Assembly: GCA_021850485.1 (NCBI GenBank)
Contig: JAJZLY010000029.1
Location: 1 to 64,000, forward strand
DNA: 64,000 bases
Direction: 5' to 3'
Origin: Bacillota bacterium
GTDB lineage: Bacteria > Bacillota > Sulfobacillia > JAJZYS01 > JAJZLH01
The position numbers were made by a program, and so were the translations under genes. Within the stretch, counting starts at the first letter, position 1; each line of letters begins with the position of its first letter. The notes under the pieces are model-generated. The model saw only the letters and a program-made list of their open reading frames with translations. It ran no database searches and was not told the DNA's origin. This document shows positions 8,758-27,847 of this stretch, one piece after another.

Positions 8758-10131
8758 CTAGGCTGCAGGCTGGCGATCTCGCCACACCGCCCTCAACAGC
8801 GGGTATAGGCCCAGCGTCAGGACGAAAGATAAGATCAGCCCCAGCGATGACCCGGCGAAGACGCCGGTGGCCAAGGGGCCAGAGAAGATGCCGCTGGAAG
8901 TGAAGGCCACCGCCGCGAGCACGCCGATCAACCAGGAGATGAGGGCCGGCATCCGGGTCTGGGCTTGAGGCAGTTTGCCGATGCGACCGGCGGCCAAATC
9001 CAGCCAGAAGATTGCCGCCCAAGGCGCCAGCGCTCCGCCCAGCAGGGTGAGGAAGGCCTCGAAGGTGCCGACAAAGCTGTGGGCTTCCAGCAGGATGTAC
9101 AGGCTGGCCGCAATCGAGATCACGGCGTCGACAAAGACGGTTCTGGAACGCGGCAGCCTGACCCGGGCGGCGAGCAGGCTCATCCCGGAGGAGTAGACGT
9201 CCATGATGTCCCCGGTAACCATGCCGCCCACCGCCGTCAGCAGGTAGGGGATGCCGAGCCAGGCAGGGAGTGCCGACTCCAAAAGGGCGATCGGGTTGGA
9301 AGAGCTGGCCAGTCCCGGTAGCCCCGTTGCCAGCAGCACACCGAAGGCGGTGAGGACGAAGGCGGGGACCACTGAAGCCCAAGTCGTGATCCAGGTCAGA
9401 TGGCGCCCGCTGGTCTGAGCGGGCAGATACCGGCTGTAGTCGGAGGCGGTGTTCACCCAAGACAGGCCGCTTACCGCCACCACGATCGAAAATGCTGGCA
9501 GGACACCGGTCAGCCAGGGCCCGGGGCGAGTGGTCGCCAACTGAGCCCAGTGCACGTGGGGCGACCAGAAAACGAGGGCACCAAGCGTCAGCGCCCCAAA
9601 CAGGTATGAGAACCAGGTCTGCACCCGGACAATGGCGCGGTGCCCGAGAAAGGCGACCGAAAAGGCGAGCAGCGTCACGACCACCAGGGAGCCGATGATC
9701 GGCCCGGTGCCACCAGGGATGCCGAAGGCAGCTTGCACCGCTGCCTCCAGAGCGTCGGTGGCGATCACCAGCACGACCGTCTCCCAGCCGACCAGGTTGA
9801 GCCAGGAGAGTAGGCTGGGGAAGGTGTTGCCAATCTCGCCGAAGGACGAGGCCGACAGGACCATCGTCGGTCGCCCGGTGCGGCACCCAGGAATCGAGAA
9901 GTAGCCGACCAGCAGGTAGGAGAAAAGTCCGCTCAGCGCGATGAGACTCTGCCACCAGGCCAGGCCATAGCTGGAGATGACGGCTCCGACCACCACGGCG
10001 GTGATTGCCAAATTCGCTGCGAACCAGATCCAAAACACTTCGCGCAGGCTCCCCCGACGAGCGTCCAGGGGCACACTGTCGCGACCGTAGGGCTCGACGG
10101 TGAAGAGATTGGCGCCGCCAGGCTCAGTCAT
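8758..10131 (-). CDS. cytX: NCS1-family permease, probably for a thiamin pyrimidine precursor (CytX-like)
   Basis: A 457-residue membrane protein with about 12 transmembrane segments and NCS1 features: FWIWFAANLAITAVVVGAVI in TM1, SWLNLVGWETV, and SWVNTASDYSRYLP in the TM6 region. It is the last gene of a thiD-tenA-permease operon under a TPP riboswitch, overlapping tenA by 8 nt. NCS1 proteins in this setting (CytX) are predicted to import hydroxymethylpyrimidine or its amino precursor. The substrate is inferred from context only. A second NCS1 permease at 30892-32238 is not linked to thiamin genes. Confidence 0.85.
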   Translation of the reverse strand: MTEPGGANLFTVEPYGRDSVPLDARRGSLREVFWIWFAANLAITAVVVGAVISSYGLAWWQSLIALSGLFSYLLVGYFSIPGCRTGRPTMVLSASSFGEIGNTFPSLLSWLNLVGWETVVLVIATDALEAAVQAAFGIPGGTGPIIGSLVVVTLLAFSVAFLGHRAIVRVQTWFSYLFGALTLGALVFWSPHVHWAQLATTRPGPWLTGVLPAFSIVVAVSGLSWVNTASDYSRYLPAQTSGRHLTWITTWASVVPAFVLTAFGVLLATGLPGLASSSNPIALLESALPAWLGIPYLLTAVGGMVTGDIMDVYSSGMSLLAARVRLPRSRTVFVDAVISIAASLYILLEAHSFVGTFEAFLTLLGGALAPWAAIFWLDLAAGRIGKLPQAQTRMPALISWLIGVLAAVAFTSSGIFSGPLATGVFAGSSLGLILSFVLTLGLYPLLRAVWRDRQPAA

Positions 10132-24495: not shown

Positions 24496-24571
24496 GCTGA
24501 CGTAGCTCAGTCGGTAGAGCACCTGCATGGTAAGCAGGAGGTCCCCGGTTCGATCCCGGGCGTCAGCTCCA
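24496..24571 (+). tRNA. tRNA-Thr (GGT anticodon), used as an integration site
   Basis: A 76-nt tRNA. The acceptor GCTGACG pairs with CGTCAGC, the D arm contains AGCTCAGTCGGTAGAGC, the anticodon stem is CCTGC/GCAGG with loop ATGGTAA (anticodon GGT), the T loop is TTCGATC and CCA is encoded. From the anticodon loop onward it is duplicated exactly at 26290-26335, so the present 3' half was probably supplied by an inserted element. Confidence 0.95.
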
Positions 24572-24572
24572 G
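24527..24572 (+). repeat. 46-bp direct repeat, left copy (inside tRNA-Thr)
   Basis: It runs from ATGGTAAGCAGGAGG in the anticodon loop to the CCA plus one G. It is identical over 46 bp to 26290-26335 and acts as the left boundary of the insertion. Confidence 0.9.
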
Positions 24573-24582
24573 CGAAAAAGTG

Positions 24583-24608
24583 GTCCCCGCGCGTTGCGCG
24601 GGGACTTT
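24583..24608 (+). terminator. Hairpin terminator after tRNA-Thr, element side
   Basis: GTCCCCGCGC (24583-24592) pairs with GCGCGGGGAC (24596-24605) around GTT, followed by TTT. It would end tRNA transcription and also lies at the 3' end of the convergent methyltransferase gene. Confidence 0.8.
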
Positions 24609-24617
24609 GGGTTTCGA

Positions 24618-25418
24618 TCACGGCGATTTGTGGGCTGTCACGAACAGGTAATCCCCCGGTAACGACCCGTCCCCCATCTGATCTTTCAAGCGTTTGAATC
24701 TGCCGGTGGCGACGTCCGCCTGCAGGCGGGTGAGGCCTTCTTGAAGTTCGTCAGGGGAAGCATTCGCAAATGAAGAGATGCCCGTGCGCACCGCGGGATC
24801 GAGATAGAACTCCGGGTGGTGTTTTCCCGCGTAGAGGAACAGGTCGACGGGATTCTCTTCGATCCAATACGGGATGGAGATGACATCGGAAAAACCGGCG
24901 TCCTGGAGTAGCGCCTTGACAGTGCTGACTGATGGCATAGAGTCTGCAGACTGCTCAATGAGGCGCGGAAAGTATTCCCGCAGCCAGTAGCGTTGGATTT
25001 GCGCGGGATCGGCGGTGAATATGCAGAATCGTCCACTATCGAGAAGAATGCGAAAAGCTTCGCGGAACACTTGCGGCAGGATGGAAGTCATGTGGTGAAG
25101 CGCAAGAATGCATGTCGCCCCGTGCAGCGATCGATCGGCGAACGGGAGTGAGGACGCCTCGGAGACGTGCCAATCGATAGTGGGTGCCTTGGATCGCGCC
25201 TGAGCGATCATGGCCGGCTCGGCGTCTACTCCGCTCATGCGGATTTGGAGGGCGGAGAGAGCAATAGTGTAGTTCCCGGTGCCGCAGGCGATGTCGACAC
25301 ATGTGTGTTCGGGTTGGAAGTCGAGCAACTTGAAGAGCTGTCTTACAATGGCAGGTTCGGCTCGACGCGTTCGGTCGTAGTCCGGCCCGAGGTCTGCGTA
25401 CAGAGACGTGACTACCAC
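24618..25418 (-). CDS. Class I SAM-dependent methyltransferase (Methyltransf_11 type)
   Basis: A 266-residue protein. Motif I is CVDIACGTGNYTIAL, motif II has the acidic GVDAEPAMIAQAR, and the post-motifs are ASSLPFADRSLHGATCILALHHM and FREAFRILLDSGRFCIFT. The C-terminal 110 residues (YWLREYFPRLIEQ and onward) fit small-molecule methyltransferases. The substrate is unknown. The GTG start at 25418 has GAGGA almost adjacent, so the start is uncertain by a few codons. It is element cargo, with base use less GC-rich than flanking chromosomal genes. Confidence 0.8.
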   Translation of the reverse strand: MVVTSLYADLGPDYDRTRRAEPAIVRQLFKLLDFQPEHTCVDIACGTGNYTIALSALQIRMSGVDAEPAMIAQARSKAPTIDWHVSEASSLPFADRSLHGATCILALHHMTSILPQVFREAFRILLDSGRFCIFTADPAQIQRYWLREYFPRLIEQSADSMPSVSTVKALLQDAGFSDVISIPYWIEENPVDLFLYAGKHHPEFYLDPAVRTGISSFANASPDELQEGLTRLQADVATGRFKRLKDQMGDGSLPGDYLFVTAHKSP

Positions 25419-25451
25419 TCCTCTTCGCCCGGCACGGCTGCGTGCCCAGCG

Positions 25452-25877
25452 TTAGTCGACCAACACCAACCTACGCCCGAGTGCGCGCATCACTCGATCG
25501 ACCGTTGCAAGGGTGGGGTTGGACCCAGAGCGCTCCCACTTTTGTACAGCTTGAAAGGTTACGTCGAGCCGTCTGGCCAATTCGACCTGGGTGACTCCGG
25601 CCCGCTCGCGCTCCAGGCGAAGTAGTACCGGCCACCCGACACGCGGATCGGGTTCGATCCACACTAAGTCTTCTCCAGAATCAAGCCCGTTTGGCGGCCA
25701 CGGGATCGCATCTCCGCGGTCTAGCATGGCTCCAAGCACGCCGGTCAGGGCTTCCCGTGCCGCGGACTTGGCAGACTCAACGTCAACCCCGAACGTGAGC
25801 ACATTGTCGAGAGGAGTGAGCGACTTCGAGTATACGACCCCGTCTTCGGTCCAAGTGCGGAACGGGTACTGCAGCAT
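25452..25877 (-). CDS. hicB: HicB-family antitoxin with C-terminal helix-turn-helix
   Basis: A 141-residue protein. The N-terminal 70 residues are a HicB partial RNase H-like fold (YPFRTWTEDGVVYSKSLTPLDNVLTFG, then VESAKSAAREALTGVLGAML). Residues about 85-135 are an XRE helix-turn-helix (RERAGVTQVELARRLDVTFQAVQKWERSGSNPTLATVDRVM). It would neutralise HicA and repress the operon through the palindrome upstream of hicA. The ATG at 25877 shares one base with the hicA stop (TGATG); a TTG one codon upstream is an alternative start. Confidence 0.88.
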   Translation of the reverse strand: MLQYPFRTWTEDGVVYSKSLTPLDNVLTFGVDVESAKSAAREALTGVLGAMLDRGDAIPWPPNGLDSGEDLVWIEPDPRVGWPVLLRLERERAGVTQVELARRLDVTFQAVQKWERSGSNPTLATVDRVMRALGRRLVLVD

Positions 25878-26059
25878 CAAGGTCGCCTAACCTCCCTTCG
25901 AATGGCGGCGACCAGGCCCGGGGGCAGATCTCTTGATCCGTGCACGGGCACGGGGATCGGCCGCCTCCCTGGCTTGACCATGATGTGGTGGGAACCCTCG
26001 ATCCTGTCCAGGAGCCAACCTTGGCTCTCCAGTTCCCTGATCAAGCCCTTCCCCGTCAT
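25877..26059 (-). CDS. hicA: HicA-family mRNA interferase toxin
   Basis: A 60-residue dsRBD-like HicA (YcfA): MTGKGLIRELESQGWLLDRI, the catalytic His in GSHHIM, KPGRRPIPVPVHGSRDLPPG and the closing helix LVAAIRREV. It cleaves mRNA when free of HicB. The ATG at 26059 matches the family start. A longer in-frame reading exists, but a -10 hexamer lies only 6 nt upstream of this ATG, so the transcript is probably leaderless or nearly so. It is the first gene of the hicA-hicB pair. Confidence 0.88.
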   Translation of the reverse strand: MTGKGLIRELESQGWLLDRIEGSHHIMVKPGRRPIPVPVHGSRDLPPGLVAAIRREVRRP

Positions 26060-26065
26060 GCCAGC

Positions 26066-26087
26066 AGTATACAACTCTTGGGTTGTA
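26066..26087 (-). promoter_or_regulatory. hicA promoter and probable HicB operator
   Basis: On the minus strand TATACT (26071-26066) is a -10 hexamer. It overlaps a perfect inverted repeat, TACAAC at 26070-26075 and GTTGTA at 26082-26087 (6-bp arms, 6-bp gap), as expected for autorepression by the HTH of HicB. Confidence 0.55.
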
Positions 26088-26153
26088 ATGGCGACGAGTC
26101 GGACGGGCTTCAGAAATGGGGCCAAAAATGGGGCCGTAGGTCTTGCATCTTGG

Positions 26154-26264
26154 TGTAACTCGATGGAACCTACTGCACATCAGGCCACTGCGACGAGAGC
26201 AGGAAAACCGCTCCAGAGGCAGAATCACAGCATACTACTGCATCTAAATGTAACTCGAGGTAAC
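26154..26264 (+). repeat. Pair of 16-bp imperfect direct repeats near the right attachment site
   Basis: TGTAACTCGATGGAAC (26154-26169) and TGTAACTCGAGGTAAC (26249-26264) agree at 14 of 16 positions, 95 bp apart. The second lies 25 bp before the right 46-bp repeat. Their place next to the crossover end suggests arm-type sites for a recombinase or excisionase. A relic of coding sequence is possible. Confidence 0.45.
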
Positions 26265-26289
26265 TAGCCGTTTCGGCCTGAAGACCTAA

Positions 26290-26335
26290 ATGGTAAGCAG
26301 GAGGTCCCCGGTTCGATCCCGGGCGTCAGCTCCAG
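26290..26335 (+). repeat. 46-bp direct repeat, right copy (tRNA-Thr 3' half)
   Basis: Identical to 24527-24572. The bases before it (GACCTAA) do not rebuild an anticodon stem, so it is not a functional tRNA. It marks the right end of the insertion. Confidence 0.9.
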
Positions 26336-26349
26336 AACTAGACCCACTG

Positions 26350-26369
26350 CCCGCAAGGCTAGCGGGTTT
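26350..26369 (+). terminator. Probable original terminator of the tRNA-Thr gene
   Basis: CCCGC (26350-26354) pairs with GCGGG (26362-26366) around AAGGCTA, followed by TTT. It lies 15 nt after the displaced tRNA 3' half, where the native tRNA terminator would be before insertion. Confidence 0.55.
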
Positions 26370-26854
26370 CACATTTCCGGGCTCCGGCCCCGAGTGGGGC
26401 AGTTGGTGCAAGAGCTGGTGCACGGCCTCTCGAATCGAGGCGTGGCCAGTCTGGACGGGCTGTCTCGAGTTTGAGCGGAGTTTTCGCGAGAGCCGCACGG
26501 CACATGGGTTCGCGGGCGCGAGAAAATTCGTTGGCACGACAAACCTGCTTCCTGCCCGCTGCCGGCCGGCCCAATGTTTCAGCATGACGGACTCAACTTG
26601 ATGGCTATTCTCTCTGTAACCTGCTTCTGGACCGTGTTTGAGGGGCAGGGTGAGCCCGCCAGGTAGATGAAAGAGCGGGTGGACGGTGGTACACTACCAG
26701 CGGGGCGATCGTAAGCGCCGTGCTGGGCCGTGAGTAAACCAGCGGAGCGCCAGATTCCGAACCCGGAGGACGAGGATCCGACTCCCTCCGGCCCTGCTAA
26801 ATGTCCTCAGCGATCCCTTTGCATGCAGCTGTCAGACTCGCGGGGGTGCAAGTC
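26370..26854. other. Non-coding or decayed stretch after the insertion
   Basis: No convincing gene is seen here. A short in-frame relic near 26400-26475 (QLVQELVHGLSNRGVASLDG) is too short to assign. TGGTACACT at 26687-26695 is an extended -10 like others in the window and could serve the DUF4160/DUF2442 genes. The frame running into the DUF4160 gene from about 26730 has low-complexity Pro/Glu content and no homology I recognise. Confidence 0.4.
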
Positions 26855-27116
26855 GTGCCACCCACCGTCCTCAATAGAACAGGGCTTTCGCTTTCGGTTC
26901 TACTCCAGCGACATGGGCGAACCCCCGTACATCCACGCTGTCCACCATTCGGGACCCGCGAAGATTTGGCTTGTGCCGGTCTCGATCGCCCGTTCCAGCG
27001 GGCTCAGTCGGGCACAGGAGCGGCAGGCGGTCAACATCGTCAGCCGACACCACCAGGAATTGATGGAGGCATGGCAGAGGTTCGCAGAGAGAGGAGGCCC
27101 GGACCTTGATCGTTGA
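26855..27116 (+). pseudogene. DUF4160 protein, frameshifted near the start
   Basis: The family normally starts like MPTVLRIG..RFFFYS. Here GTG 26855, with GGGGGT 7 nt upstream, begins VPPTVLNRT in one frame, while the rest of the domain (GFRFRFYSSDMGEPPYIHA, then IWLVPVSIARSSGLSRAQ and HHQELMEAWQRF) is in another frame to TGA 27116. A single-base change near 26880-26890 separates them. Alternatively a longer protein starts upstream near 26730 in the second frame, but its extra 50 residues look non-native. DUF4160 usually pairs with DUF2442, as here, in a presumed toxin-antitoxin-like couple of unknown mechanism. Confidence 0.65.
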
Positions 27117-27420
27117 CATGGACCCGACCATCATTGCCGTGTCCGTAGCGGACGGCAGCATCCGGGTGTCCCTTCGGGATGGACGCCAGGTGAGCGCTCC
27201 GGTGCGCTGGTTCCCGCGGCTCGAGGCCGCCACGCCGACACAGCGGGAGCAGGTTGAGATCGACCCTGCCGGCACGGCTCTGCACTGGCCAGAACTGGAC
27301 GAGGATATCGACGTGAGCGCCTTCTTGGCCAAGGAGCACATCGCCACCTCGCCGATCGCCTCGCTACTCGTCTCTGACGACGGCTCACTGGCGGAGACCG
27401 CTCGGCGGGGCAGACCCTAA
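27106..27420 (+). CDS. DUF2442 protein, partner of DUF4160
   Basis: A 104-residue protein with the DUF2442 pattern: IIAVSVADGSIRVSLRDGRQVSAPVRWFPRLEAAT, QVEIDPAGTALHWPELDEDIDVSAFL. The TTG at 27106 has GAGGAGG 8 nt upstream and overlaps the DUF4160 stop by 11 nt; an ATG at 27118 lacks a ribosome-binding site. DUF4160-DUF2442 couples are widespread and often called toxin-antitoxin-like, but activity has not been firmly assigned. If the partner is truly frameshifted, this is the surviving half. Confidence 0.8.
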   Translation: MIVDMDPTIIAVSVADGSIRVSLRDGRQVSAPVRWFPRLEAATPTQREQVEIDPAGTALHWPELDEDIDVSAFLAKEHIATSPIASLLVSDDGSLAETARRGRP

Positions 27421-27520
27421 GGCCAAGAGCCACGTCTCAGGGTGGGGACCGAGATCATCAGGGTGAGCCGTGTTACGGGCGAGCAGGCCGGGCGTTCGCC
27501 CACAACGAAGAACGCGGCTC

Positions 27521-27847
27521 ATGTCCAACGTGGTGCCCCGCCCCCGCAAGGGCGACCGACCAGACCGGCCCACCAGGTGGTCGCTCACCTGGCGGGCAAC
27601 CCGCCCGGACGGGACCTCCCAACGTCTCTACGAAACGTTCTCCGGCACCATGATGGCGGGCGCCAAGGGACGGGAACATAGACGAGGGTCGTCGCGATCG
27701 ATGACTGTCGTACCCAGCCCCAAGTTTGTCCCGGTGTTGACACAGCGTGCCTATGAACGGATGTTGATCATCCGTTCCGTCCAGGTGCTGCCCCGTTCAG
27801 GGTCTCGTACAATTGCACTGGCGTCGAGTTGGAGATCGGCTGGGTGA
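27521..27847 (+). pseudogene. Possible N-terminal fragment of a tyrosine recombinase (integrase)
   Basis: The frame from ATG 27521 reads MSNVVPRPRKGDRPD, then RWSLTWRATRPDGTSQRLYETFSGT, resembling the arm-type DNA-binding start of phage-type integrases (W-x-L-x-W-R, PDG, xxTF-x-GT). After about 27690 the resemblance is lost and no catalytic domain follows. If correct, this is what is left of an integrase near the tRNA-Thr insertion. The match is by eye and weak. Confidence 0.3.

Follow-up and report, generated by a model that had tools for sequence, protein, structure and literature searches.

The window, a stretch of 64,000 nucleotides of contig JAJZLY010000029.1 from a Bacillota bacterium (assembly GCA_021850485.1), carries a gene for tRNA-Thr(GGU) on the plus strand at positions 24496-24571, called by ARAGORN as tRNA-Thr(GGT), and a second copy of the 3' half of this gene further downstream. 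The two copies of the repeat, at 24527-24572 and 26290-26335, are identical at 46 of 46 positions and are spaced 1763 bp apart, in agreement with the 46-bp identical repeat and the element of about 1.76 kb described in the first-pass annotation. The left copy (attL, plus strand) completes the tRNA; it runs from the start of the 7-nt anticodon loop (ATGGTAA) to one base past the CCA, and when extended leftwards the repeat covers 52 nt at 96% identity. This identity at the 3' half of the tRNA is not due to chance. An element-borne terminator hairpin, GTCCCCGCGCGTTGCGCGGGGAC, follows in the sequence at 24583-24605 (plus strand), and DNA homologous to this region was found after the cores in arrays of two relatives, G008 and G009. 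According to sequence comparison the right end (attR, 26285-26335, plus strand) consists of an element-derived CCTAA and the 46-bp core, the 3' part of which is the original chromosomal end of the tRNA.

Only three genes with family matches lie between the copies, all on the minus strand, and neither gene calls nor the family search gave an integrase there, which bears out the earlier description of the content as a methyltransferase and hicAB. The hicA toxin gene (25877-26059, 60 aa from the ATG) matches PF07927 (E 3e-15) and the HicA structures 4c26 and 6g26. The hicB antitoxin gene (25452-25880, 142 aa, with a C-terminal HTH domain) matches PF01381 (HTH_3) and the HicB structures 6u0i and 6hpb, the match to 6u0i being full-length (E 2e-4), and it is 79% identical in G008 and G005. 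The palindrome TACAACTCTTGGGTTGTA at 26070-26087, upstream of hicA, has related palindromes in G008, G005 and locus L149 and is probably the HicB operator. The pair is intact, and with its HicA-family toxin, HicB-family antitoxin and upstream palindrome it resembles known HicAB type II toxin-antitoxin (TA) systems also in gene order and domain content; its mobile context alone is unusual. No hicB relative was found in IMG/VR, and plasmid and phage collections gave no match to the element.

The third gene encodes a class I SAM methyltransferase of 266 aa (24618-25418; PF13649, E 6e-17; PDB 3ege, E 9e-35), for which a role as a third component of the HicAB module had been proposed, for example in a modification or defence trio. 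It is on the same strand as hicB, 33 bp downstream, and has a weak PADLOC match to mads_2 that reflects the methyltransferase fold only. However, the three close hicAB homologues found elsewhere (G008, G005 and JAJZZC010000097.1) are all without such a methyltransferase, and the closest solved relative of the enzyme is a putative antibiotic-pathway methyltransferase (3ege). A functional part in the HicAB module is thus very improbable. Because the other close hicAB homologues do without it and no ortholog was found in the order (best match 34%), the enzyme probably belongs to the variable cargo. The hicAB of JAJZZC010000097.1 was considered as a related cassette and rejected, as it lies outside any tRNA-Thr element.

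The original chromosomal flank with its native terminator (26336-26463, plus strand) is 97% identical to the DNA directly after tRNA-Thr in G001, a genome of the same genus. When the predicted empty site was constructed by joining the tRNA-Tyr to tRNA-Thr region to the flank right of 26335, it gave an unbroken match to G001 (331 bp, 93.7%); the alignment of the occupied window sequence with G001 stops at the end of the tRNA. In G002 tRNA-Thr is likewise followed by a native-type terminator, with no element. Since tRNA-Thr of G001 joins directly the flank that now lies right of the distal copy, the element is a real insertion. Corresponding comparisons were possible for sister arrays at the same tRNA, the flank of G011 matching that of the G008 array (88% over 85 bp) and those of G007 and G003 matching that of the G006 array (86 and 80%, respectively, over about 130 bp). 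The first-pass reading of a recombinase-less island in tRNA-Thr(GGU) is therefore upheld by the lack of an integrase between the copies and by empty sites in relatives, for the window element (G001, G002) and for sister arrays (G011, G003/G007) alike. The arrangement is not one that all relatives share without empty sites, which would have counted against this reading.

A repeat of 46 bp can mislead assemblers and tRNA clusters do duplicate, and the right copy might in principle be what remains of a tandem tRNA, or an assembly artefact might account for the element. The right copy, however, has no tRNA 5' half, and its CCTAA left arm differs from the CCTGC of the tRNA and recurs in cassettes of another family; as a decayed tandem tRNA it was excluded on the grounds of the missing 5' half and this element-specific arm. 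Against an artefact of assembly, the two flanks align with G001 in the order expected, and we give these explanations practically no chance of being correct.

Two other observations concern the same tRNA in relatives. About 230 bp downstream of its tRNA-Thr(GGU), G002 has a 3' fragment (L045:5020-5070) similar to tRNA-Thr(UGU), which suggests an island originating from this other threonine tRNA. In G009 (L047:2380-5572) the T-stem typical of the order is found in the outermost copy, whereas the functional tRNA and the first copy have a different one; it appears that an element replaced the T-arm of the host tRNA.

To the right of the flank an older, decayed island is present (26464-27667, plus strand; 93% to G001 L046:7224-8426), consisting of a DUF4160/DUF2442 pair and an N-terminal remnant of an integrase. 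The gene pair (26730-27420), found also in G001, has a weak match to the DhiT toxin, below the cut-off, and judging from its sequence is likely to be a second TA pair. The G001 island, in the same tRNA (L046:4207-8832), contains an MFS transporter, DUF4160/DUF2442 and a truncated integrase, and ends with the integrase N-terminal remnant followed by a degenerate tRNA copy with its core at 8781; it is an integrase-bearing element caught in the course of decay. As the element of the window adjoins an older decayed island that is common to G001, the tRNA-Thr(GGU) site is a repeated target.

Between hicA and the right core, positions 26115-26284 form a distinct module of a doubled motif and arm-like repeats. 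The doubled motif AATGGGGCCAAAAATGGGGCC (26115-26135, plus strand), a signature of integrase 3' ends, marks the start of this tail; it is identical in G008, and outside hicAB the homology between the window and G008 starts at this motif (26115). It is followed by a putative attP arm (26136-26283, plus strand) containing the repeats 26144-26169 and 26239-26264 (81%), with self-similarity at a lag of 10 (p=0.004). Nearly all sister elements have a terminal arm of about 173 bp. The tail of the window is divergent from the sister tails in sequence, but the distance from motif to core is equal within 1-2 bp and the core edge is the same, CCTAA+ATGGTAAGCAGG. All tails, and the arm of the integrase-bearing island of G050, have an excess of 10-bp self-similarity, a periodicity that would fit helically phased arm sites bound by an integrase. 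When cassettes with unlike cargo were compared, homology began at most 4 nt from TTGGTGCCCAAATTGGTGCC, the doubled motif, in almost all pairs that have it intact, the exceptions being onsets 7 and 33 nt upstream of the motif, and ended at the att core.

Where tRNA islands of this class are intact, they have a counterpart of the doubled motif, a doubled 8-mer with a lag of 11-12 bp located at most about 90 nt from the integrase stop. It is exact in eight of ten islands tested and retained at 7/8 positions in the other two, the significance per locus being modest (p 0.01-0.1 for eight and about 0.3 for two). In G050 an intact integrase (PF00589, E 3e-27) has the doubled motif in its last codons, followed by the arm and a 3' copy of tRNA-Thr(GGU); the likeness to the window is one of order and orientation of the layout. 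The tail was also considered as protein-coding and this was rejected, since conservation does not extend over the full length of any frame, and it was treated as attachment DNA; the frames recall what we take to be integrase C-termini (NGAKNGA, LVPKLVP). G006 and G007 have a doubled TGGTGCCA motif also just past the terminator of the chromosomal tRNA-Thr (L141:9730 and L055:4157), possibly left behind by an element of still greater age. Because of this occurrence the motif alone is not diagnostic, whereas motif, geometry and core together are.

At least eight further integrase-free elements, often in tandem, occupy tRNA-Thr(GGU) in relatives of a sister family (f4), the nine elements counted at the tRNA-Thr 3' end, with tails of the same kind, being that of the window, three in G008, two each in G009 and G006 and one in G007. 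Those of G008 carry VapBC, a NUDIX gene with HicBA, and, in a larger array, HicAB, VapBC and HicBA, this HicAB being 77% identical in DNA to that of the window. G009 has a PemK toxin with APH in one element and MazEF in the other, G006 has MazEF and VapBC, and G007 a HicB remnant with MazEF. None of these elements has an integrase, and TA genes are present in every related cassette. In the right-hand cores ATGGTAAGCAGG is preceded by CCTAA, in place of the CCTGC of the tRNA, and therefore the left part of the core is element-derived and one recombination specificity is involved; the cores are degenerate in some G006 and G007 copies. The combinations of cassettes vary between genomes, and VapBC and MazEF cassettes recur with their tails in different genera. 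Between G008 and G006 the VapBC cassette and its tail have an identity of 89.9% over 1,026 bp, compared to 73-74% for the xer regions of these genera. The recurrence of the same cassettes in changing combinations of neighbours argues for the movement of single cassettes.

Some of the arrays are partly decayed, with IS1380-type transposases and, in G006 and G007, degenerate cores; the right core of the G008 HicAB element is missing and the tail of the G009 MazEF element is shortened. DDE_Tnp_1_4 (IS1380-type) transposases were located inside two G008 arrays (L049:4359-5669 and L048:6715-7834), one of them just beyond the HicAB element that is without a right core.

Each cassette is bounded on both sides by repeated DNA and the arrays differ by whole cassettes, and it could be argued that cassettes spread by homologous recombination between arrays, with the tRNA ends and the tails of about 220 bp as homology arms, and not by a site-specific reaction. 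We find this improbable. Beside the tRNA a second intact core is missing in G001, G002 and G011, and a first gain by homology would need a donor array and homology in the downstream flank; moreover, the homologies are short and divergent (65-85%), poor substrates for homologous recombination.

The genome of the window has eight tyrosine-recombinase hits, all on other contigs, and no tyrosine recombinase was among the matches listed for the array contigs (C24 of the window's genome, G000; C27 and C50 of G008; C204 of G009; C104 of G006). No intact integrase bearing a tail of type A or B was found in the 15 genomes of the order, and searches for the attP edge in 398 genomes of the phylum (with one mismatch) and in IMG/VR (exact) gave no match. 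Order-wide family and protein searches, scans for the doubled motif in all fetched loci, and motif patterns in the 398 phylum genomes and IMG/VR likewise gave no helper integrase. As the relatives named here are draft 'Bacillota bacterium' MAGs, the missing helper is weak evidence. A tRNA-Ala(GGC) island with two integrase genes, one of them interrupted by a stop, was observed in the window's own genome (G000:C17:56000-62500, L167).

The missing helper would also fit a history in which each island came with its own integrase, lost it by later deletion and left the cassettes as fixed passengers. The G001 element, with its integrase N-terminus followed by a degenerate core, is in exactly such a state, and transposases and degenerate cores occur in some sister arrays. 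Random deletions would, however, leave varied endpoints and scraps of integrase, whereas the unlike cassettes share an edge at the doubled motif and contain no integrase fragment. The recurrence of VapBC and MazEF cassettes with tails across genera and combinations, and the 46/46 identity of the two cores in the window, also speak against this decay history, which we regard as rather unlikely.

The integrase-free relatives with one common attachment arm lead us to propose that the TA genes probably move by the integrase of another element. Judged from the sequence comparisons, the element in the window is likely to be a trans-mobilised, CIME-like non-autonomous integrative cassette that keeps its attachment ends and has no integrase. 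The suggestion of a satellite that borrows an integrase is the best-supported mechanism, while the searches gave no helper, because of which use in trans is something that we only infer. Both cis ends would be kept, the left as a core of the tRNA-Thr(GGU) 3' half with its own terminator and the right as the arm of about 173 bp with a core, the tail serving as a putative integrase-binding arm, and the TA cargo would stand where the integrase gene stood. The integrase for excision and insertion would most likely be supplied by another element, co-resident or visiting, that is likewise specific for tRNA-Thr(GGU), and the cassettes may be active at present. Identity starts in the ATGGTAA loop and the tRNA is reconstituted intact, as in tyrosine-integrase tRNA islands, and the crossover itself would fall in this loop. 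Integration would restore the tRNA, supply the new terminator (24583-24605) and leave the old tRNA end in attR, and tandem insertion would build the arrays. HicAB may stabilise the cassette, presumably by addiction, and so favour its retention; the first-pass suggestion that the TA pair keeps the element in place is compatible with the TA genes of every related cassette.

In integron arrays the cassettes are small, have no recombinase, often contain TA genes, share one attachment module and are mobilised in trans. The present cassettes are similar in size, TA genes, absence of a recombinase and possession of one attachment module. They differ in their module, an attP-like arm with a tRNA fragment, and in that the tRNA is restored, and a terminator supplied, by each of them; neither IntI nor any other tyrosine recombinase was among the matches listed for the array contigs. 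Tycheposons are tRNA-targeted cargo elements with partial tRNA repeats, a tyrosine recombinase of their own and larger cargo; the cassettes here share the target and the repeats, but have smaller cargo and no tyrosine recombinase of their own, and the lack of an encoded integrase sets the window element apart from tyrosine-integrase tRNA islands in general.

The CIMEs of Streptococcus ICEs are att-flanked, lack integrase and transfer genes, lie in tandem at the 3' end of a gene and can be mobilised with a related element, and they have been described as ICEs or IMEs that have decayed and move by accretion (PMC5704250). The window element, with attL/attR-type 46-bp repeats at tRNA-Thr, an empty site in G001 and no integrase or conjugation genes beside its methyltransferase and hicAB, is like these, as are the tandem sister cassettes. 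Unlike CIMEs, the cassettes here are 1-2 kb, carry TA cargo, have a fixed arm module and boundary, and recur between genera in changing combinations. The ssrA islands of Dehalococcoides are also tandem and bounded by copies of an RNA-gene 3' end, with a conserved motif beside each repeat, and 15 of them are without integration genes; they involve serine recombinases, a tmRNA target and reductive-dehalogenase cargo (PMC3146451). The cassettes of the tRNA-Thr site share the tandem arrangement, the RNA-gene bounds and the lack of integration genes, and differ in their core from a tRNA anticodon loop, their arm of tyrosine-integrase type and their TA cargo. CIMEs and these ssrA islands are the nearest described kinds, from which the present elements differ in size, uniform TA cargo and the arm module with a fixed edge.

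More tentatively, and with somewhat more doubt than confidence, the arrays could represent an integron-like system on a tRNA gene, in which integrases acting in trans insert, reshuffle and stack a pool of integrase-free TA cassettes, each with a portable arm at its end, at tRNA-Thr(GGU) throughout this Bacillota order. The cassettes suggest that a tyrosine-integrase island can still spread when it has shed all but an arm of about 173 bp and a single core with its terminator, and they provide a natural series of minimal attachment modules. They would offer a concrete route by which TA pairs may travel between genera with no recombinase of their own, and one in which the relation of helper and cassette is testable.
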